A program made the translations under genes and the position numbers. The notes under the pieces were generated by a model. It was not told the DNA's origin, did not search any database, and saw nothing but the letters and a program-made list of their open reading frames with translations. Positions 5,451-35,165 of a DNA stretch of 36,194 nt are shown here, in pieces. This stretch comes from a virus. Location of the stretch: IMG/VR virus record IMGVR_UViG_3300032331_002153, positions 1 through 36,194 of that record. One strand, given 5' to 3'. How positions within the stretch are numbered: position 1 is the stretch's first letter; the number at the start of each line of letters is the position of its first letter.

Positions 5451-5485
5451 AAGACTACTTGAAGAGTTTTGTCAAGTCTAGTCTT
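5451..5485 (-). terminator. Hairpin just after the 2184-aa gene (terminator or processing site)
   Basis: AAGACTA (5451-5457) pairs with TAGTCTT (5479-5485), and CTTGA (5458-5462) pairs with TCAAG (5472-5476), with a two-base bulge and a nine-base loop. The structure starts at the stop codon of the large gene and ends just before the ribosome-binding site of the next gene. No U-tract follows on the minus strand, so it may be an attenuator or RNase site and not a full terminator. Confidence 0.45.
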
Positions 5486-8400
5486 TAGTCGTTTGGCGCA
5501 GGGTACTTTCGGCGCGACTCTTCAAGAGCGTTTCTTTCCTCTTGCAGATTCATCATGGTCTCTTTCAAAGTGCGCTTCAAACCATTATCGAATACCTTGT
5601 AGTAAACGTTCCTGTCCACTTGCTTTTGAATCTGTTCTTCAGTGGCATTCTTGCCAAGCACCTTCTTGGCTTTGCGTTCAACCGACTTTTTGAACGAGTC
5701 ATCGATAGCTTTTTTCAGTTCTTTCATAACAGACTTGGCTTTGGAGTAACCGCGAACATCGTCAGCTTTCTCCTTGCCAGTGCCATAGAACAACTGCTTC
5801 CAGCCGATGCCAAGAATCTGATTAATACCCCACTCCACCAACGTCGACATATCCGGCGTTTCTTCAGACTTGGCGTGAAAACCAGAACGAGCCAAGTCGG
5901 TTCCGTAAGAAGACAACTCGCCAATGCTCTCCAGCCCTGCTTCACCCAAAGCAGCGGCTGTGACATCCATTGCTCGGAACGGAGTAGCGCCTAGCACCAT
6001 CTCACCAAACTTACGCATGGCCGTGTCGGCGTTCCAACCTCTCTCGCCGATCTTCATAATCCAGTTCAAAAGCGGTCCACCGGCCAAGCCCATCGTTTGG
6101 AAGAACTGAGACGGGCTGCTGATTTCATTATTGCCCCATCGCATTAGGTCACGCTTGACCAACGCACGATCCGCGTAATCTTCTGGGTCGTTCTTGGCAA
6201 GCTCTTTCATCTCCTTGCCATAATCAGCAAGTTCCTTAGGCATTGCGGCAATCTGCTCATCAGACATCTTTGCCCAATCCAAATCCGAATTCATCACCTT
6301 GGCGTAGAAGTCTGGCTCGTGGAAAATTGGCGCAAACCTGGCCGCTTCGATCATAGAAACAAGCGAGTTAAGTGTGTTGACTGTTGGCGTTGTAAACATC
6401 AACGGGTCAAGGTTGCGATAGTGCAAGTACGCCGGATTGGTACCTTCAGCCAACACAGTCGCTTCAAGCGAAGGATTGTATCCCAAAGCGTGTCGAAGGT
6501 TGCGCAGCTTGCGTTGGTCCAAGAATGCAGCTTGAGCAGCGTTGACCATCATTGCACGCTTCAAGGCTCGGCCAGTGTATTCCATCGCCTGAGACATGCG
6601 AACAGCTGGAGAGTTGGTTTCGTAAAACGGACCACCAAACATCAACTCGTTGACCAATCCATTTTTGATAAACGGAATATCCATCGCACCCTGGTACCAC
6701 GTGAAGATACCGGACACCAACGGAAGCGAGCCACGCTGCAATGCGCGACCCCACAATCCAAGTTGCTTGGGGTCTAGAAACTTCTTGTTCTGCATCACGT
6801 TGGCATTCGCACCAAGCGTGTCGGCCAGCAGTTGATCTTCTCGACCAACAATCTGTGGCTTTTGTTGACCACTCATGTCTTCAATCTTGTACTTGTTCTC
6901 GGTCATCCTGGTAATCCGTACCTCTCGGTGCCGGCTAACAGGGACATTAACAGATCGACCAACCTCAAGCTCATCAAGCTTGTTGCTTAGGTTGTCATAA
7001 ACAAAGTTCATTTCTTCCAAGCGGAAAGGCGTATCACCAAACTTGCTGTAGAAGTCGGTCATCATGTCCCGCAAACGACCATATGTATCTGGCGCTGCAC
7101 GCAAAGCACGACCGACTTCCGTTACATCAAGACCTTTTTCGCGCTTAAACTGTTGCCACCAGTTGGACTTTGTAATCTCGTTTGTATACTCAGTGTGACC
7201 AATAGGAGCATTGCGATTGATAGCTTTAAACTTGCGAACTTCTGCAGGGGTCAAATCGCCGTAGTCGCCATCCAAGAACTTCTTGTACTTTATTCCAGAC
7301 TCAATCATGCCTGGGATGAAGTCTGTGCTACCGCGAGAGCTAAGCTGCATCAAAGAGTTGGAAAGATTGTTGTTGACCATTGCAGAGAGATTCAAGGGCA
7401 CCACGTTGCGTTGAGCCATCTTGCTCAAGCCACGTACCGCGCCCTCTACTCCTTGCAAAGTGTCGCTGGCCAACAAGTCTTGAAAGTGTGATTCCAACGC
7501 CTTCAGCACCGCCGGGTGCATGTGAACATTGTGAAAGTCCACAGGCTTGGTGTCGGTGCCCTTGAACGTCCGCTCGTTAATGCTGTTGATTGCATTGACC
7601 AGATTAGACTTCTGAGGGGTTCCACCCTTGACTTGCGTTTGGGCCGATTGGAACGAGTCGATGTCATCGATTAGTTGTTGAAGCTTGGCGCGCTCTCCTG
7701 ATGTCCAGTTCCACTTAAACTCGGAGTCCGCATCTTGAAGGATAAGCCTCAGGGTATCGGCGATTTTAGCGCCTTCGTAAGGAAGAATAAGAGGCAAGGT
7801 TTCTTTGTTGCGAACAACGGACTCTGCCAACTGCGCCGCATATCCTTCTGCACCTTGAAGCGCCGCTTGCTTGCCATTAGACAACACACGCGGGTTGCCT
7901 TCTTTGTCGAACCGGAATCGATTCATTTCGGATTCGATTGCGTGAAGCGTGCCATAAGTAGCGGCAGCTCGGTTCATTTCATTTGTAACCGCATCAATCG
8001 CGTTTGCTCGTGCTTGGCCTACAATCTTTGGGTCAAGCCGTTCAGCCGCTTCGATGAAGTCGTCCGCCTTCAAGATTGCTTTGCCCTTGTTGGCCACAAC
8101 AGGGAACTTCTCTTTGCTGTACGCCGACAATCGACGAGGGTCGGTAATGAGTTTATTGACTTCGGTAAGCGCAAGCTTTCGCTCGGCGTTACTAAACCCA
8201 GCCTTCTTAATGCGCTGGTCAACCAACTTCATCAGGTAATCACGAAACTCAGGAGAGTGCAGCGACAGCTGCATCGTGTCATCCATAATGTTGTTAAACA
8301 ACCGTTGGTAAATGCGCTCAGGTGTCAACAGTTTGCGGCCAGCTTCAAGCTCTTGGTTAGCCCACTTGTTGGTGCCTGGTTCACTAGGGGTTTCCAGATC

Positions 8401-11400
8401 GAATCGAGGTTCTCGCACTTCTTGGCCGAACGAACCCATCTCACGGACAGCATCAGCATATTCGCTTGCAACCTTGGCAAATCGACTCTGGTCGCCTTTG
8501 ATATTCTTTGGCGCCTCCCTCTTGGTCAGGTACTCCTGCATCTCATCGAGCGCCAGGTTCAACGCGTTGCGTTCTGGAGTAGGAGCTACCTCGCCTTCAG
8601 CCATTGGCCGAACGGCACGCGAAAGACCTTCGGTGCGCGCTTTGGCACGCGGGACAACCTCGCCTGTCGGAGTAAGTTCAAACTGCTCAACCACTGGGGT
8701 TGGTCGACGAACCGCGCCATAGGTTGGTTCGATCATACCAGATGCAGCATTCTGCACTGCGATCTCAGAGTTGATCCACCGGCTAGCATCATCCACGCCA
8801 CGGGTAACCCCTTCCTTGCGCAGAAACTCCGCGACAAGCACAGGGTCTTTGTGGGTGGTGTCGATGTGCTCGGCCAAGCGCCGAGCCGCAGCGTAAACAG
8901 TTGTGTCCTCGGGTACACCAATCTTACTAGCAGCCTCAGCGCTAATCGGTGCATTAGGATCGAAACCAGCATCAAGCGCCTTGCGCTTGTAATCACTGGC
9001 CTCAACAGCCAGGTCTTCGATGATTTTCCGTCGACCCTTGGGCATCTCTTCAAACAGCCGCGCAAGACGTTGCGGGCCACCCTCTTCAAACATGCGATAC
9101 TCACCACGTCGACCAGACTCAATAGCCTTTTCTACTTGGTCGACAGTATCGAATGCCTTGAGCACCTCAGGCTTCAATGCTTCGCGCCGCTCAGGTGCTG
9201 CCGCCTCGTAAGCATCCTTGGCTTTCTTGAGGCGATACTGTGCTTCTTCCAGCATACGCGGCAAATACTCTGGCGAACGCGGGTCGATTGTCCGAATGAC
9301 CGGCACTTCGCTTGCGAGCGTAGCTTCGGCCGAAGCCAGCTTTTCGCGAGGCACATAGATTCGTCCAGCAGAAATCTCCTCTCGGCCAGCCGCTTTCTCC
9401 GCTGCTTCAGCAGCAGTCTTTGCTGCGCGCTCAGCAGCGCTCACGCGACCGGCTTGAGCGGACGCCGCACGGCGCGCCGCTTGGGCAGCCGCCTCGGTAT
9501 CCTCGATGCCCTTGACGCCCTCAGCCATCTCAACGCCAGCAACAGCAGCCTTGCCAGCCGCCGCACGCTCACGCTCTCTCAACCGAGCCTGGGCCTCTTC
9601 GCCGCGTTGCTGCAAAGCTTCTTCAGTAACCAAGCCTTGCTGACGAGCCTCTTCAGCCGCAGATTGTTTACGTTCCATTTCTGCAAGAGCATTAGTTACT
9701 TCTCGCTCTGCGGCCCTCGCTTTAGCCCTTGCTTCTTTGGGCAATCCGGATTCTGGCTTTTTCATTTCTTCAGCAAAGCCAACTCCAGTTTCCATCGCCT
9801 CTTCGCTGGCGATCTTTGCCTTACCACGCAAGCGTGACTCGCGTGCTTCAGCGGCAAGCTGTGCTTCTCGCGAGGCCTGCTCTGTGCGGAGCACCTCCAA
9901 CTTCTGCTTGAGTTGCGCTTTGTCAGCCTCAGTCGCAGCGCCAGCGATTTGCTTTTGAACCTTGTCGGCTTCTTTCTTGAGTTTGCGAACCTGCCGGTCC
10001 AAGACTTTCATCTTCTCGGCCGTCTCGATGGACATCGCCTTGGCCTGCGCCATGGATTCGGCTCGGGTGCCAGCTTTCTCTGCGGCCCTCTCAGCGGCGC
10101 GAGCAGCGCGCACACTAGGCTCAGGCGTAATCTTCAGTTCGATCTCAACCAAGTCCTGGTCGGTAAGGTCTGGAACCTTTCCCGCCTTGGCATCTCGTCG
10201 CAAAAGTTCCGCAAGACCATTCAACTGGCTTTGGTCTTTAATGATGTTGTCCAGAATCTGAGTGCGCTCTTTGTCGCCAACTTCAAGGCTATCAGCCATG
10301 TACTGGACAAGCTTTTGCTTCAGCTTCTTGGCTATGTTTGGCGTAATGGCATCAACAGCCTCGGAGATAAAATTGCGAGCGCCCTTTTCAAAAGCCGTCA
10401 GCTTAGCGTCAAGCGCCGGGTACTTAGCCGCCTTTGCGCGCAGAATCTTGAACCCGCCAATAGCTGGCTCGGAGCTTGTAAACGCCGTGAACGGGTGAGT
10501 GAAGATGATATTGGCGCCGCTTGGATCGGTTAAGCCACCAGCCAAACCAACAAGTTGACCAGGCAATCCGCCCAAACCAGCACCCAGCTCAGCGCCAATC
10601 GCCTTTTGCGAAATGTCGTTCAGTTCGTTTTCAGCTTCTTCGATAAGTTCCTTGTCACCGCTCTTCTTGGCTTTTTCCAATTGAGCCTTGGCAGTAACAA
10701 CTTCGGGTGTTTCTGGCACAACCTCGGCGCCAACCACCTTGTTGGCCATCTCAGCCAAACCAGCAAGCGAGGTGGTGAGATCCAAACCAAAGTTGTAAAG
10801 CGCTTGATGCGGAGCGGTAATACGACGCTGCCTGCGCTCTTTGGTCATCTGCTCAACAAACGGTCGAAACCGTTCAGGAAGAATCACTTCATCCTTAGAT
10901 GTCTCAAATACCGTAGGCAAGCCTTCGCCATGGAGCGGAGCGCCGCGTGCGGTACGGGCCGCATAGGTTCGCTCCCAATCACGACGAATCTTGGCAGCCA
11001 TCTTAGGGTCTTCTTGCATCTCATCCCAAAGACGCTGCTGAACCGCAAGACGACTATCGCTCAACATCCCAGGTTCACCAGGTGGGCGCGGGCGATCTGG
11101 ATCTGGAGCAAATGGTTCTTCAAGCGTTTGAGTAAGTTCAGTTTCACCAAGCAACTTGCTAACCGCACCCTTGCCGATACTACCGACTCGACGAACAACG
11201 TCCGTAGGTGTAGCCCATTTGAACTCAGGTTCAGCGTAAGCCCCGACCTTGTGTTCTTTGGATTGCTCACTTTGAAAATGCCTAAGGTCGTACACGGTGG
11301 AAGGGTCTTCACCCTTGACGCGCCGGTACATGTTGACAATCTCTGCGCTAGGCGGCTTTGCGTAATCCCAAGCATTCAGCTTTTCAGCTTCGCTTTGAGT

Positions 11401-12039
11401 AATCGCCGGCTCAGTCGATGCCGGCTTAGCTACGCCAGTTGTCCGCGCCAACGGCTCTTCAACCTCAGCGGCTTCTTTCTCTGCCTTGGGCTTAATCTGA
11501 CCAGTGGTCTTGAGATACTCAAGTTGGGTTTCAAAATCCCTGGAACCAGCTCGATAAGGATCGTACTTGGCAGTTTCCTTCATAGGAAACTTGGCGCCTA
11601 GCGCAGCACCAGCCAGCGCCCCTGGAGCACCAAACAAGGCGCCGCCAAGCGCAGCGCCGGCACGGCCAGTTTCGATCCGCTCGGCTGGCGTTGATGGCTC
11701 AGGCTTCTCAACCTTTGGCTCAAGCAACTTGCCGATACCAGCGCCGATAGCAGCGCCAGCAGTGGGCGCACCAAACGCAGCGCCTAGTGCGCCACCGATA
11801 CCAAAGCCCTTGGCAGTGGTGCCGGTGGCCAGTTCCTTGCCAAGCTCGCGAGCAGCAGGCATCTCGGGCGCAATAGCCGGAGCTTTCTTTGAGGCAAGCT
11901 GATCAAGCGGGGTGTCAAGCTTATCTTGGTAGTCGTCTACTTCTTGACCATACTTCTCGCGAAACCGCTCGCGAAACTGGTCTGCGTTGTAGCCACGATT
12001 CTTGGCCTCGGCCATCAAATCTTTGATTGTCTCGGCCAT
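5485..12039 (-). CDS. Giant internal-virion/DNA-ejection protein candidate, 2184 aa
   Basis: This is the largest gene in the window. Residues 78-104 and 126-149 are two Gly/Ala-rich hydrophobic segments resembling glycine-zipper membrane hairpins. A long Ala/Glu/Arg-rich region, roughly residues 620-950, should be coiled coil. The last third is a mixed helical region with Asn/Leu-rich and aromatic stretches, including VPLNLSAMVNNNLSNSLMQL near residue 1550. It is third in a 237-717-2184 series that parallels T7 gp14-gp15-gp16, so ejection through the envelope at infection is the best guess. I see no lysozyme, protease or polymerase motif. A TTG two codons upstream is possible, but AGAGG spacing favours the ATG at 12039. 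It could instead be a polyvalent protein delivered to the host. Confidence 0.82.
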   Translation of the reverse strand: MAETIKDLMAEAKNRGYNADQFRERFREKYGQEVDDYQDKLDTPLDQLASKKAPAIAPEMPAARELGKELATGTTAKGFGIGGALGAAFGAPTAGAAIGAGIGKLLEPKVEKPEPSTPAERIETGRAGAALGGALFGAPGALAGAALGAKFPMKETAKYDPYRAGSRDFETQLEYLKTTGQIKPKAEKEAAEVEEPLARTTGVAKPASTEPAITQSEAEKLNAWDYAKPPSAEIVNMYRRVKGEDPSTVYDLRHFQSEQSKEHKVGAYAEPEFKWATPTDVVRRVGSIGKGAVSKLLGETELTQTLEEPFAPDPDRPRPPGEPGMLSDSRLAVQQRLWDEMQEDPKMAAKIRRDWERTYAARTARGAPLHGEGLPTVFETSKDEVILPERFRPFVEQMTKERRQRRITAPHQALYNFGLDLTTSLAGLAEMANKVVGAEVVPETPEVVTAKAQLEKAKKSGDKELIEEAENELNDISQKAIGAELGAGLGGLPGQLVGLAGGLTDPSGANIIFTHPFTAFTSSEPAIGGFKILRAKAAKYPALDAKLTAFEKGARNFISEAVDAITPNIAKKLKQKLVQYMADSLEVGDKERTQILDNIIKDQSQLNGLAELLRRDAKAGKVPDLTDQDLVEIELKITPEPSVRAARAAERAAEKAGTRAESMAQAKAMSIETAEKMKVLDRQVRKLKKEADKVQKQIAGAATEADKAQLKQKLEVLRTEQASREAQLAAEARESRLRGKAKIASEEAMETGVGFAEEMKKPESGLPKEARAKARAAEREVTNALAEMERKQSAAEEARQQGLVTEEALQQRGEEAQARLRERERAAAGKAAVAGVEMAEGVKGIEDTEAAAQAARRAASAQAGRVSAAERAAKTAAEAAEKAAGREEISAGRIYVPREKLASAEATLASEVPVIRTIDPRSPEYLPRMLEEAQYRLKKAKDAYEAAAPERREALKPEVLKAFDTVDQVEKAIESGRRGEYRMFEEGGPQRLARLFEEMPKGRRKIIEDLAVEASDYKRKALDAGFDPNAPISAEAASKIGVPEDTTVYAAARRLAEHIDTTHKDPVLVAEFLRKEGVTRGVDDASRWINSEIAVQNAASGMIEPTYGAVRRPTPVVEQFELTPTGEVVPRAKARTEGLSRAVRPMAEGEVAPTPERNALNLALDEMQEYLTKREAPKNIKGDQSRFAKVASEYADAVREMGSFGQEVREPRFDLETPSEPGTNKWANQELEAGRKLLTPERIYQRLFNNIMDDTMQLSLHSPEFRDYLMKLVDQRIKKAGFSNAERKLALTEVNKLITDPRRLSAYSKEKFPVVANKGKAILKADDFIEAAERLDPKIVGQARANAIDAVTNEMNRAAATYGTLHAIESEMNRFRFDKEGNPRVLSNGKQAALQGAEGYAAQLAESVVRNKETLPLILPYEGAKIADTLRLILQDADSEFKWNWTSGERAKLQQLIDDIDSFQSAQTQVKGGTPQKSNLVNAINSINERTFKGTDTKPVDFHNVHMHPAVLKALESHFQDLLASDTLQGVEGAVRGLSKMAQRNVVPLNLSAMVNNNLSNSLMQLSSRGSTDFIPGMIESGIKYKKFLDGDYGDLTPAEVRKFKAINRNAPIGHTEYTNEITKSNWWQQFKREKGLDVTEVGRALRAAPDTYGRLRDMMTDFYSKFGDTPFRLEEMNFVYDNLSNKLDELEVGRSVNVPVSRHREVRITRMTENKYKIEDMSGQQKPQIVGREDQLLADTLGANANVMQNKKFLDPKQLGLWGRALQRGSLPLVSGIFTWYQGAMDIPFIKNGLVNELMFGGPFYETNSPAVRMSQAMEYTGRALKRAMMVNAAQAAFLDQRKLRNLRHALGYNPSLEATVLAEGTNPAYLHYRNLDPLMFTTPTVNTLNSLVSMIEAARFAPIFHEPDFYAKVMNSDLDWAKMSDEQIAAMPKELADYGKEMKELAKNDPEDYADRALVKRDLMRWGNNEISSPSQFFQTMGLAGGPLLNWIMKIGERGWNADTAMRKFGEMVLGATPFRAMDVTAAALGEAGLESIGELSSYGTDLARSGFHAKSEETPDMSTLVEWGINQILGIGWKQLFYGTGKEKADDVRGYSKAKSVMKELKKAIDDSFKKSVERKAKKVLGKNATEEQIQKQVDRNVYYKVFDNGLKRTLKETMMNLQEERNALEESRRKYPAPND

Positions 12040-12054
12040 GGTCAAGCCTCTTGA

Positions 12055-31877: not shown

Positions 31878-32361
31878 CGCTTTCCTCCTGCTTTTTGGAC
31901 TTCTTGCTGCCAAAGCTGTAGTAGCCCCAAGACTCGCGGCTAATCTTGCCCTCGGTCACCAAGACGCCCAGCGCCTCGTCAATGGTATCTTGGCTGTACC
32001 CACGATCTGCCATGGCTTGCACGATATCGCCACGCTTGGCGCGAGTGTTTTCTTCCAAGAACTTTAAGGTAATATCTTTTGCGTTAACCGGTTGCTCAGC
32101 AAAAGCAGTTGAAACTACACGACGATTGTAATCGTCATCCCACGGGCAGTTCTCTTCGCTGCCACGTTCCCGCCGGAAAGCATCGCGAGCACGACGAATC
32201 AAAAGGCGCATACGCACGCGAGCATCGCCGCCACGGCGGAACCGCAGAACGTAGTCGCAATGAGCCATGGAGATGTAATCGTCCAGCGTCCAGCTTACTG
32301 GACCGCCGTTATCGATGCCGCACTGACGCAACAACTCCAAATCCTTTTGATCGTAGTTCAC
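31867..32361 (-). CDS. Winged-helix-like hypothetical protein, 164 aa
   Basis: The C-terminal 50 residues look like a winged-helix DNA-binding domain: KRGDIVQAMADRGYSQDTID then EALGVLVTEGKI and an aromatic wing (SWGYYSF), followed by a Lys/Ser tail. The N-terminal half is Arg-rich and helical (RVRMRLLIRRARDAFRRERG). The start is GTG, overlapping the upstream stop by four bases (GTGA), with GGAGGAG before it. It could be a terminase-associated DNA-binding protein or a late regulator. The precise partner is unknown. Confidence 0.7.
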   Translation of the reverse strand: MNYDQKDLELLRQCGIDNGGPVSWTLDDYISMAHCDYVLRFRRGGDARVRMRLLIRRARDAFRRERGSEENCPWDDDYNRRVVSTAFAEQPVNAKDITLKFLEENTRAKRGDIVQAMADRGYSQDTIDEALGVLVTEGKISRESWGYYSFGSKKSKKQEESDVA

Positions 32362-32858
32362 GACATCTCCTCCTTGTGCTTCAAATCTTCCAATAGCTCG
32401 GTCAGGTTCTTTCTCGCCAACTCTTCCATCATCTTGCGGCCTGAGGTTTGCAATGCCTCAAGTGCCCGCTGGTGACATTCGATAACCAACGCAGGCCAGC
32501 CATCATCATCACGCTCTTCGTATCGCCTGGGTGCACCACGGTCTGGAACTCCCATGCTTGCGGTACACAACACAATCGGAATACCCATGTGCCGGTAACG
32601 AACGCTGACCGAGATGAAGGCTTTGTCGTCTACCACGGCAAGCGCCTGGTACATCGCAATCATTTCTTCATGCGTCCACGATGTGGTGATTTCCAGTGGG
32701 CGACGATCAGTAATCGCGCCCTCTCGGCCAGCAATCTCCCAAGCCACCGTGTAATACCTGCCGGCAAACCCAGGCGCGGGTACTTCTGCGTTGGCAAACG
32801 TGTCGCCGTCGTGACCGGGCGGCACTTGTTGTTCTTGGTCGTCGAAATCCCCAAACAT
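32358..32858 (-). CDS. Hypothetical protein, first gene of the leftward operon, 166 aa
   Basis: Acidic N-terminus (MFGDFDDQEQQVPPGHDGD), a beta-rich middle (RYYTVAWEIAGREGAITDRR; FISVSVRYRHMGIPIVL) and a helical, charged C-terminus that may be coiled coil (MMEELARKNLTELLEDLKHK). The ATG at 32858 has AAGGTG upstream; a longer in-frame reading reaches into the divergent recombinase cassette and is rejected. It is transcribed away from the repeat cluster at 32880-32940, so it is likely the first gene controlled by that region. Unknown family. Confidence 0.7.
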   Translation of the reverse strand: MFGDFDDQEQQVPPGHDGDTFANAEVPAPGFAGRYYTVAWEIAGREGAITDRRPLEITTSWTHEEMIAMYQALAVVDDKAFISVSVRYRHMGIPIVLCTASMGVPDRGAPRRYEERDDDGWPALVIECHQRALEALQTSGRKMMEELARKNLTELLEDLKHKEEMS

Positions 32859-32879
32859 GCACCCGCACCTTAGCGCACG

Positions 32880-32940
32880 TTTGCACGCATTGGCAAGCAC
32901 CTTTGCACAAAAGGTTGACAGCCCGTGCAAAGGGGTGCAA
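32880..32940. repeat. Cluster of TTTGCAC half-sites, including a 34-bp inverted repeat
   Basis: Half-sites TTTGCAC lie at 32880-32886 and 32902-32908; inverted copies GTGCAAA lie at 32925-32931 and, partly, at 32935-32940. The two central ones extend to a perfect 9-bp inverted repeat, CCTTTGCAC (32900-32908) and GTGCAAAGG (32925-32933), with a 16-bp spacer. The cluster fills the divergent intergenic region upstream of the HTH gene and serine recombinase. It may be an operator or the recombinase's crossover/res-type site. Confidence 0.72.
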
Positions 32941-32943
32941 TCT
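32915..32943 (+). promoter_or_regulatory. Possible promoter for the HTH-recombinase operon
   Basis: A perfect -35 box TTGACA (32915-32920) sits exactly inside the inverted repeat. Seventeen bases downstream the -10 position holds CAATCT, a poor match, so activation or repression by a bound protein is likely. A ribosome-binding site GGAGGTG at 32951-32957 follows. Confidence 0.35.
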
Positions 32944-32961
32944 GGTGCGCGGAGGTGAAAG

Positions 32962-33141
32962 ATGGAGTTGGTATCGGAGCAGGACGCAGCAAAGCTGCTA
33001 GGAGTTAGCGAAACAACCGTGCGCCGCTGGGTAAATCGCAAGATTCTTACGGTTTACCACACGCCGACGCGGCGAAGGCGCTACAAGTTGGACGACATCA
33101 AGCGTTTCCAGAACACGATTACCCCTGTGGAGGTAAAATGA
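32962..33141 (+). CDS. Excisionase/MerR-type helix-turn-helix protein, 59 aa
   Basis: The translation begins MELVSEQDAAKLLGVSETTV and continues RRWVNRKIL, a classic HTH_17/MerR-type N-terminal helix-turn-helix as found in Xis-like excisionases and in the N-terminal part of IS607-type transposases. A winged, Arg-rich part (TPTRRRRYKLDDIKRF) follows. GGAGGTG stands four bases before the ATG. Its stop overlaps the recombinase start (ATGA), so the two are coupled. Likely roles are recombination directionality factor, accessory DNA-bender or autoregulator binding the repeats just upstream. Ordinary HTH regulator is the fallback. Confidence 0.8.
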   Translation: MELVSEQDAAKLLGVSETTVRRWVNRKILTVYHTPTRRRRYKLDDIKRFQNTITPVEVK

Positions 33142-33803
33142 CCCGCGTCGTTGCGTATCTGCGTGTTTCCACCAACGAACAGGCTAGTTCTGGGCTTGGT
33201 TTGGCTGCGCAGGAAGAGAAAATCCGCGCATACGCCAAGCTTTATGACTTGGATATCGTTTCGGTGGAGGTTGATGCGGGTATTTCGGCCAGCACCATGG
33301 AGCGTCCTGCGTTGCAGCGGGCTTTGTCCATGCTTGGCGCGGGCGTTGACGGGCTTTTGGTAGCAAAACTCGACCGGCTCACCCGTTCTGTGCGTGACTT
33401 GAGCGACATTTTGCACGATTACTTCATGGATACGCCGTATACGTTGCTTTCGGTGAGCGACCAGGTGGACACTCGCACGGCTTCTGGCCGGCTAGTGCTC
33501 AACATTCTGATGTCGGTGTCCGAGTGGGAGCGTGAAGTCATCGCAGAGCGCACCAAGGCGGCGCTTGGGGTGTTGAAATCCAGCGGCAAGCGGGCTGGTA
33601 ACGTGCCTTTGGGCAAGAAGGCGCTGGCTGACGGTACGCTTGTGGATTGCGAGGAGACGATGTGTGCTATTCGGATGGCAAAAAGCTGGCGCGCTGCTGG
33701 TTCCAGCTGGCAGCAGATTGCTGATGCGATGAATTGTACCTACCGCACGCAGACTGGTGGGCTGTTTAACATCACTTCTGCTCGTCGATACGCGCTGGCG
33801 TAA
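33138..33803 (+). CDS. Small serine recombinase (resolvase/invertase type), 221 aa
   Basis: The catalytic domain is complete: YLRVSTNEQ with nucleophile Ser11 and Arg9, KLDRLTRS with Arg80 and Arg83, and the long E-helix SEWEREVIAERTKAAL. A short C-terminal domain (about 165-221) has a resolvase-like helix-turn-helix (AAGSSWQQIADAMNC) and an ending similar to the first part of the PF07508 recombinase domain. It would cut both strands at a crossover site, leaving 2-bp overhangs. It is much shorter than large serine integrases. It may resolve multimers, invert or integrate DNA; no partner site other than 32900-32933 is evident. Coupled to the HTH gene by ATGA. Confidence 0.92.
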   Translation: MTRVVAYLRVSTNEQASSGLGLAAQEEKIRAYAKLYDLDIVSVEVDAGISASTMERPALQRALSMLGAGVDGLLVAKLDRLTRSVRDLSDILHDYFMDTPYTLLSVSDQVDTRTASGRLVLNILMSVSEWEREVIAERTKAALGVLKSSGKRAGNVPLGKKALADGTLVDCEETMCAIRMAKSWRAAGSSWQQIADAMNCTYRTQTGGLFNITSARRYALA

Positions 33804-33813
33804 AAACACTGAA

Positions 33814-33838
33814 GCCCGCCTGGAACATCCAGACGGGC
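33814..33838 (-). terminator. Leftward intrinsic terminator
   Basis: On the minus strand a 10-bp stem GCCCGTCTGG/CCAGGCGGGC (one G-U pair) with a five-base loop is followed by TTCAGTGTTTTTA. It stops leftward transcripts from 33863-34923 before they run into the recombinase. On the plus strand no U-tract follows and one pair is lost, so it is probably one-directional. Confidence 0.78.
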
Positions 33839-33862
33839 CTCAATGTGATCCCCCGAACGGTA

Positions 33863-34168
33863 TCAGTACTTGATGATGGGCGGTTCAAGCTCGGTGCTAA
33901 TCGCCAGGCGATACGGCCCGGTCGAGTTAGCATCACCACCAATCGTCAGCACCGTGGCATCCGACAAGCCGGTCACCACGCGCTGCTCATTGGCCTTAAC
34001 CGTGAATACCGACTGCCCGTTATCAAGCTGAAGGATGTGGTCCTTGGCGCCGTCGTCGTTCTTGTAAACAAGCGACATAGCACCAGCGGAACCAATCAAA
34101 TTATCGAAGTTAAAGCTTTGCGCCGTGTTGGCCAGCAGCGTCCCTTCCTTAGCACAAAAGTTAGCCAT
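33863..34168 (-). CDS. Short paralogue of the neighbouring 243-aa protein, 101 aa
   Basis: Begins MANFCAKEGTLLANTAQSFN; the whole protein aligns by eye to the first 100 residues of the 243-aa upstream protein, sharing KEGTL, SLVY.NDD, EQRV and VLTIGGDA blocks and ending where that protein continues with a second domain. Mostly beta-strand pattern, no membrane or enzymatic motif. AAGGAGG precedes the ATG. A virion surface or host-interaction role is possible. It lies just upstream of the leftward terminator, suggesting that the pair is a separately controlled unit. Confidence 0.75.
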   Translation of the reverse strand: MANFCAKEGTLLANTAQSFNFDNLIGSAGAMSLVYKNDDGAKDHILQLDNGQSVFTVKANEQRVVTGLSDATVLTIGGDANSTGPYRLAISTELEPPIIKY

Positions 34169-34191: not shown

Positions 34192-34923
34192 TTAGGCGAC
34201 GGGCAGCATGAACAGAACCAGACGGCCGTTCACATTGCCAGCATTCTTGGCGGTCAACACCTTAAAGCTAGCGCCGCTAGCCAGCGTAGCGTTAGCAACC
34301 ACGCTGGTCGAAGAAAACGAAACACGACCAGCCACAGCAACCGCACCGGTAAAGGTAAGGATGGTAGTAGCAGCTGCGGTTTGCAGGGTCACAGCAGTCG
34401 TAATCGCCGGAGTTCCATCAAACATCATGTAGCCGCCCAACACTTCATGCTTACCAATCAAACCAGTGTAGGTGGTGGTGCCATCAGCATCGGCAATATC
34501 AATCACCATCATCGAAAACGGCGACGGCGCTCCAGCAACAGTCGTCGTAACGTGCACGCCCTTCACAAACTTGGCATCGGTCACCGCGCCATCCGCAATC
34601 GCGGCCGTGGTGATGGGGCCGCCATACGGCTTGTAAAACAGCGGGGCCGGTTCGTCCGAAGAAGCGTACACGCGATAGGCGCCGGTCGAACCAGCGTCAC
34701 CACCGATCGTCAGCACATCCCAATTCTGCACGCCGCTCAGCACGCGCTGCTCACTCGGCTTGACCGTGATGTTTTGGCCATCGACCTGAAGCGTGTGAGT
34801 AGCGGCAGCATCATCGTTGCTGTACACCAGCGAGGAAGCGTTCACACCGAGAAGCTGCTTGAAGTTAAAAGTCTGGGCAACATTAGCAACGAGCGTGCCT
34901 TCCTTAGAAGCAAAATTAGCCAT
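34192..34923 (-). CDS. Two-domain beta-rich protein, paralogue of the 101-aa gene, 243 aa
   Basis: Residues 1-100 (MANFASKEGTLVANVAQTFN; VLTIGGDAGSTGAYRVYASS) are the domain shared with the downstream gene; residues about 105-243 are Ala/Thr/Val-rich, with a beta-sandwich-like pattern (TTILTFTGAVAVAGRVSFSS). The ATG at 34923 has AGGAGA upstream and follows a possible promoter; an in-frame start 59 codons earlier reaches into upstream genes and is rejected. Composition suggests a decoration or adhesin-like structural protein. No named family is recognised. Confidence 0.77.
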   Translation of the reverse strand: MANFASKEGTLVANVAQTFNFKQLLGVNASSLVYSNDDAAATHTLQVDGQNITVKPSEQRVLSGVQNWDVLTIGGDAGSTGAYRVYASSDEPAPLFYKPYGGPITTAAIADGAVTDAKFVKGVHVTTTVAGAPSPFSMMVIDIADADGTTTYTGLIGKHEVLGGYMMFDGTPAITTAVTLQTAAATTILTFTGAVAVAGRVSFSSTSVVANATLASGASFKVLTAKNAGNVNGRLVLFMLPVA

Positions 34924-34948
34924 AGTAAGGTCTCCTAGTTGGGTGCCG

Positions 34949-34976
34949 ATTCTACGGCGTGATGCACGCTTGCCAT
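34949..34976 (-). promoter_or_regulatory. Possible promoter with palindrome upstream of the 243-aa gene
   Basis: The minus strand has ATGGCA (34971-34976) and, 16 bases on, TAGAAT (34949-34954), a good -10. Between them is the perfect palindrome GCGTG-CAT-CACGC, a possible operator. An overlapping inverted repeat ACGCTTG/CAAGCGT spans 34966-34992. Function is not proven. Confidence 0.38.
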
Positions 34977-34991
34977 AAACCAGAACAAGCG

Positions 34992-35165
34992 TCAAGTCTT
35001 TTTCTTCATTTTCGCCAACCTTTCCTTGGCGACATCTTGCATGGTCGGCTTGGAGCCAACATGCTCGGGCAGCTTGCCTTCGGGAGTTTCCTTCTCCCAC
35101 CGCTTGGCAATCTCAGGGTGCTTGGCGTACATGAATCCACGCTGGGCCTGCGACTTGAACGGCAT
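34992..35165 (-). CDS. Small Lys-rich phage protein, 57 aa
   Basis: MPFKSQAQRGFMYAKHPEIA, then an acidic stretch and a Lys-rich helical end (KERLAKMKKKT). Short proteins beginning with a similar KSQAQR motif are common in phage genomes, usually unannotated. The ATG at 35165 lies just behind GGGAGAAG and within three bases of the previous stop; a longer in-frame version without such a site is rejected. No function is known to me. Confidence 0.7.
   Translation of the reverse strand: MPFKSQAQRGFMYAKHPEIAKRWEKETPEGKLPEHVGSKPTMQDVAKERLAKMKKKT

Follow-up and report, generated by a model that had tools for sequence, protein, structure and literature searches.

Results

A rightward gene pair among leftward phage genes

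The stretch of DNA analysed here (the window) comes from a tailed phage recorded in IMG/VR. It is a fragment of 36,194 bases whose genes are read leftward nearly throughout. The exception is a cassette of two rightward genes lying between two − strand neighbours:

32358–32858, − strand: left flanking gene, function unknown; same neighbour in relatives
32962–33141, + strand: winged-HTH gene, 59 aa (HTH_17/excisionase/BldC-like by ORF list, Pfam, NCBIfam and fold model)
33138–33803, + strand: small serine recombinase gene, 221 aa, with a catalytic domain and a truncated C-terminal DNA-binding domain of the large-serine-recombinase type (Pfam, profiles, model)
33806–33846, no strand assigned: 18-bp hairpin between convergent genes, terminator-like with its U-run leftward; kept in relatives
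33863–34168, − strand: right flanking gene, function unknown; same neighbour in relatives

The first-pass annotation of this DNA had described an HTH gene and a serine recombinase gene overlapping by ATGA, and an ORF check of the window recovered both, with that overlap. Its view of the pair as a compact, self-contained operon, which has a conserved upstream region of its own and no TnpB, also holds; the absence of TnpB, likewise noted earlier, was borne out by a domain search for PF07282, which found nothing in the window and nothing in the four relatives. No RNA families were found in the window.

Two further observations concern other genes. The right flanking gene and the next one (34192–35100, − strand) share a duplicated N-terminal part (~100 bp, 75% DNA identity) that starts with a sequence like MANF.(A/S)KEGTL; these neighbours are an apparent tandem duplication and have no clear Pfam or PHROG family. 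In the structural region, a single 2186-aa ORF (5485–12045, − strand) presumably encodes a large virion protein, and its DNA is poorly conserved between relatives compared with that of its neighbours.

The cassette is conserved in an undescribed phage group

Recombinases 75–81% identical to this one at the amino-acid level are encoded in four other IMG/VR records, and in all four the HTH gene lies upstream, the overlap is the same and so are the flanking genes. Two of these records (G001 and G002) are one sequence in the cassette region, leaving three distinct relatives and, with the window, four distinct sequences. The HTH protein is 73–93% identical across relatives; the HTH protein, the recombinase and the promoter region are under purifying selection, and the relatives are all colinear. 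One relative, G004 (L023–L025), is a closed genome of ~52.3 kb because its ends overlap exactly over 123 bp, and it could be a reference for the phage group. Its remaining part encodes a helicase, a VapE-type primase, SSB, exonuclease VIII, an Erf annealing protein and a DNA methyltransferase, and no tRNA was found in the closed genome. Compared with 50,697 records of published phages, the capsid was unmatched and the terminase and portal were weakly matched. The group, with genomes of ~52 kb, is undescribed.

A terminase profile search found no cassette-free relative that would show an empty site, and no integrated copy of the cassette was seen: the five related records are all phage contigs, and a scan of genome contigs returned distant recombinases only. 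The five records contain no tyrosine integrase, zinc-ribbon recombinase, ParB, ParA-type ATPase (AAA_31) or HTH_3 repressor; the sole match in the HTH_3 search was the cassette’s own HTH, below the cut-off. No published account of this HTH and recombinase pair surfaced in the literature searched. The cassette is real and conserved, and it is a modestly interesting variant.

The recombinase resembles a truncated large serine integrase

The recombinase matches the Pfam Resolvase family (PF00239, 1.1e-33), and its profile matches include the TP901-1 integrase (2.8e-41), Bxb1, SPbeta YokA and gamma-delta; its structural model (pLDDT 92.5) gave Foldseek matches to TP901-1 and Bxb1. The catalytic residues S11, R9, D79, R80 and R83 are invariant in 39 viral homologues. 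Judged by its sequence, the protein belongs to the resolvase/invertase superfamily and its active-site residues are intact. In the model, a long E helix (115–148) is followed by helices 172–186, 191–201 and 212–220, so that a resolvase-type helical DNA-binding domain is predicted directly after the catalytic domain and E helix. The C-terminal DNA-binding tail, YRTQTGGLF.ITSARRYA, is nearly invariant, as is the active site, which indicates that selection maintains catalysis on specific DNA.

Despite these matches, the protein is not a large serine integrase. It has 221 aa versus ~500 aa, its model stops after the first C-terminal helical domain, and it lacks the part of those enzymes that contains the zinc ribbon and coiled coil; the zinc ribbon (PF13408) was found neither in the window nor in the relatives. 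These features bear on the main rival explanation, in which the recombinase is a lysogeny integrase and the HTH protein is its excisionase or directionality factor. It ranks first among the rivals because this enzyme has no competitor that we found: no second recombinase turned up in the phage group, and none besides it that is site-specific in the closed genome of 52.3 kb. In addition, the HTH protein matches excisionase families and, in its fold, Pukovnik Xis, and several other HTH_17 genes lie near tyrosine integrases in related viral records. However, the region that large serine integrases use is absent, and neither an HTH_3-type repressor nor an integrated copy was seen. We regard an integrase role as a serious alternative, although one that is rather unlikely to be correct.

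The wider family gives further context. Relatives of the recombinase occur in >300 IMG/VR stretches. Among 42 viral records with a related recombinase, a tyrosine integrase over the cut-off is also present in 11 and a large serine integrase over the cut-off in 2 more (13/42); as a separate integrase is present, the small enzyme probably does not serve as integrase in those lineages. The large genes near the related viral recombinases are mostly replication, methylase, ParB-like and terminase genes. The nearest full-length non-viral homologues found are plasmid-borne, with 45–50% identity, and come from Picosynechococcus, Marinitoga, Solidesulfovibrio and Azospirillum. As a separate observation, in several viral records (L050, L062 and L080) a related recombinase is followed, after about 39 bp, by a gene for a 550-aa protein. 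In L050, where this gene was scanned, it encodes a terminase large subunit, a hint that recombinases of this type may be connected with DNA packaging.

The HTH protein is BldC/Xis-like, and a split IS607 transposase is unsupported

The HTH protein matches Pfam HTH_17 (PF12728) at 3e-11 and 43.8 bits (cut-off 27), and its NCBIfam matches are excise, the IS607 N-terminus (2.7e-7) and BldC. Its model (pLDDT 83) has BldC (6amk/6ama) as its top fold matches in Foldseek, with TM 0.76–0.85, followed by RacA and Pukovnik Xis. The protein is a single winged-HTH domain of the BldC/Xis HTH_17 family.

An HTH_17 gene also adjoins a related recombinase in pMO1, pDCAR2, L038 and L055, where it lies downstream of the recombinase; the L038 match is below the Pfam cut-off. 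We rejected HTH_17 as a universal partner, as most relatives of the recombinase have no HTH_17 neighbour. A possible second type of partner was seen in small Picosynechococcus plasmids (L027 837–1079, L031 3178–3417 and L032 3184–3423), in which a conserved ~80-aa protein gene overlaps the recombinase gene by 4 bp; the two proteins that were scanned (L027, L031) had no Pfam match.

Because IS607-type transposases join a similar HTH to a serine recombinase catalytic domain, the cassette had earlier been likened to a split version of one. In IS607 TnpA the DNA-binding domain is N-terminal and fused to the catalytic domain (PMC6188088). The HTH protein’s match to the IS607 N-terminus speaks for this origin, and both systems join such an HTH with serine recombinase function. 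However, the cassette has two separate proteins, and its recombinase keeps a C-terminal DNA-binding domain of its own; it needs no HTH for DNA binding, and with this the main reason for a split IS607 falls. Its catalytic domain is far nearer to large serine integrases, it scores 23 bits against the IS607 model (cut-off 110), the position of the cassette is fixed in all relatives, and there is no TnpB. On domain content and scores we rejected the split transposon, which we find barely credible.

The upstream DNA is constrained as a promoter-like region

The DNA between the cassette and the divergent left flanking gene contains the following features:

32859–32961, no strand assigned: divergent intergenic region, 103 bp, under purifying selection
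32869–32898, − strand: possible leftward promoter (TTGCCA, 18 bp, TAAGGT) for the gene at 32358–32858; ATTGGCAAGC invariant
32900–32908 and 32925–32933, no strand assigned: perfect 9-bp inverted repeat CCTTTGCAC/GTGCAAAGG, spanning 34 bp; exact in the window, not conserved
32915–32943, + strand: promoter-like element of the cassette, TTGACA-N17-CAATCT; neither hexamer varies in relatives
32925–32944, + strand: two direct repeats GTGCAAAGGG/GTGCAATCTG with 10-bp spacing, over the promoter spacer and −10; candidate operator, GYGCAA core mostly kept
32951–32956, + strand: ribosome-binding site GGAGGT of the HTH gene, invariant in relatives

In pairs among the four distinct sequences, identity is 78–89% in the intergenic region versus 51–66% at 4-fold sites of the recombinase gene, and this excess indicates that the region is under selection. 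The blocks invariant in all four sequences are TTGACA and CAATCT (17 bp apart), GGAGGT and ATTGGCAAGC. By these motifs, the conserved part of the region looks promoter-like; its −10 is weak, which is why the promoter is absent from the consensus-scan list.

The direct repeats lie over this promoter. In the relatives they read GYGCAAAGGG/GYGCAATCTK, with GTCC within the first copy in one relative, and the 10-bp-spaced direct repeat persists better across relatives than the inverted repeat. BldC binds as head-to-tail oligomers on 9-bp direct repeats and not as a palindrome-bound dimer (PMC5859096), and the DNA binding of RdfS/Xis is similar to that of BldC (PMC11963761). As these proteins bind head-to-tail, a direct repeat would be the more natural operator for the HTH protein, and we consider these repeats a candidate operator for a BldC/Xis-type HTH.

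A constrained promoter-like region with repeats over it would also fit a regulatory operon or remnant, in which the HTH protein represses the promoter through the repeats and the recombinase either targets DNA of the host or of rivals or serves no essential purpose at present; the lack of a site pair in the phage genome agrees with this. The near-invariance of the active site and of the C-terminal tail argues against it, and we think such an operon or remnant quite improbable.

The inverted repeat is not a conserved crossover site

The perfect 9-bp inverted repeat described in the first-pass annotation is exact at 32900–32933, and TTGACA lies within it at 32915–32920. Of the four half-sites reported there, three are exact copies of TTTGCAC/GTGCAAA (32880, 32902 and 32925) and the fourth (32935) is only the 6-mer GTGCAA. 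In dinucleotide shuffles of the 103-bp region, a perfect 9-bp inverted repeat with arms ≤30 bp apart arose in 2.8%, and any 7-mer in at least three copies in ~4%; the whole window has six 9-bp inverted repeats of the same kind versus a random expectation of roughly four. The inverted repeat is therefore mildly unusual at its spot, but it was chosen post hoc.

The perfect arms and dimer-sized span in the window had suggested a crossover site that shares its DNA with the promoter. Overlaps between promoters and res sites of the Tn3 type are known, which is a point in favour of this reading. However, of the nine positions in the arms, all 9 pair in the window but 5, 4 and 8 in the three distinct relatives, and the spacing of the arms is 1 bp longer in two of these relatives. 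Half-site columns are invariant at 18/27 positions versus 34/59 elsewhere, with the promoter and ribosome-binding site excluded. No conserved dyad rose above column-shuffled controls at any centre, although a comparison of four sequences could overlook a dyad that is weak and imperfect. The repeat is thus not conserved in relatives that carry both genes, an outcome that the first-pass annotation itself had named as counting against its proposal. Nor did a search for the 34-bp site elsewhere, which had been proposed, produce a counterpart: the intergenic site does not recur in the phage genomes, and across all of IMG/VR the arm pair had six matches, about the chance level and all with other spacings, while the exact core had none. 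As relatives do not keep the dyad, the shared-site reading is unsupported and, in our view, very unlikely; the inverted repeat is probably incidental or lineage-specific.

An invertase that flips a phage segment between two inverted sites is suggested by the recombinase’s match to the PHROG DNA invertase family. We rejected segment inversion: the relatives are colinear, and the phage genomes yielded neither a further copy of the intergenic site nor a long inverted pair that keeps its position, as the flanking sites of a Gin/Hin-type invertase would. A role as invertase is highly improbable.

Discussion

The explanation that we tentatively favour, and whose chance of being right we place a little below even, is a ‘moron’-like antisense operon that encodes a BldC/Xis-type autoregulator or accessory factor and a resolvase-type recombinase. 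Of the traits of a moron, the promoter-like region, the hairpin and the antisense position are present, and a cassette-free relative was not found. The operon, with its own promoter and terminator-like hairpin, would be expressed antisense within the late gene block. The HTH protein most likely binds the 10-bp-spaced direct repeats over the promoter and so regulates the operon, and it may also aid the recombination complex. The recombinase most likely acts intramolecularly, with one site per genome; on phage DNA that is circular or concatemeric it would resolve multimers or redundant ends. Small serine recombinases of plasmids and plasmid-prophages work in this way, and for the phage enzyme we infer the resolvase mode, as we do the place of a crossover site, which was not found.

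Several lines of evidence point to a resolvase operon. The operon recurs with its neighbours in four relatives, both proteins and the promoter are under purifying selection, and the hairpin is conserved; the zinc-ribbon and coiled-coil part is absent, and the nearest non-viral homologues are on plasmids. The neighbourhoods of the related viral recombinases (13/42 with a separate integrase), the HTH_17 genes adjoining recombinases in pMO1, pDCAR2, L038 and L055, direct-repeat binding by BldC (PMC5859096) and the recombinases of phiCD38-2 and D6 (PMC8026635) are also consistent with it. Against it stand the missing crossover site, the weak −10, and an HTH_17 adjacency that is recurrent yet uncommon and elsewhere places the HTH_17 gene downstream of the recombinase. 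ParA (AAA_31), ParB and an HTH_3-type repressor were not found in the closed genome, so a plasmid-prophage state would be hypothetical.

A more far-reaching idea, which we consider improbable, is that the pair is a recurring phage and plasmid module, in which an oligomerising BldC/Xis-type HTH protein is the architectural or directionality factor that makes a truncated large-integrase-like enzyme a regulated integrase or resolvase. Such a role for the HTH is so far known mainly with tyrosine integrases. If the HTH protein did control the direction or assembly of the recombinase, the pair would form a highly compact recombination system of two proteins (59 + 221 aa), which could give insight into how large serine integrases gained regulatory parts and perhaps provide a tool. 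If the pair is a plain autoregulated resolvase, it belongs to the ordinary maintenance biology of phages and plasmids, in a phage group that has no close relative in the searched collection.

Comparison with known systems places the cassette between several of them. With the large serine integrases (TP901-1, Bxb1, SPbeta YokA) it shares the catalytic domain together with the beginning of the recombinase domain, whereas the zinc ribbon, the coiled coil and the remainder are absent. The phages phiCD38-2 and D6, proven plasmid-prophages (PMC8026635), likewise have small serine recombinases, but they have their own partition genes and the cassette phages have none that we found. The HTH protein has the single-domain HTH_17 fold of the BldC, Xis and RdfS family, with BldC as its best structural match; however, BldC governs development and RdfS and Xis partner tyrosine integrases, whereas the partner here is a small serine recombinase and oligomeric binding is putative. 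The plasmid recombinases of Picosynechococcus pAQ3, Marinitoga pMO1 and Solidesulfovibrio pDCAR2 resemble the cassette enzyme in size (~225 aa), domain order and sequence (45–48% identity), and they too combine a large-integrase-like catalytic domain with a small overlapping partner gene, which is HTH_17 in pMO1 and pDCAR2. In these plasmids the partner, which has no known domain in Picosynechococcus, comes after the recombinase, whereas in the phage cassette the HTH comes first.
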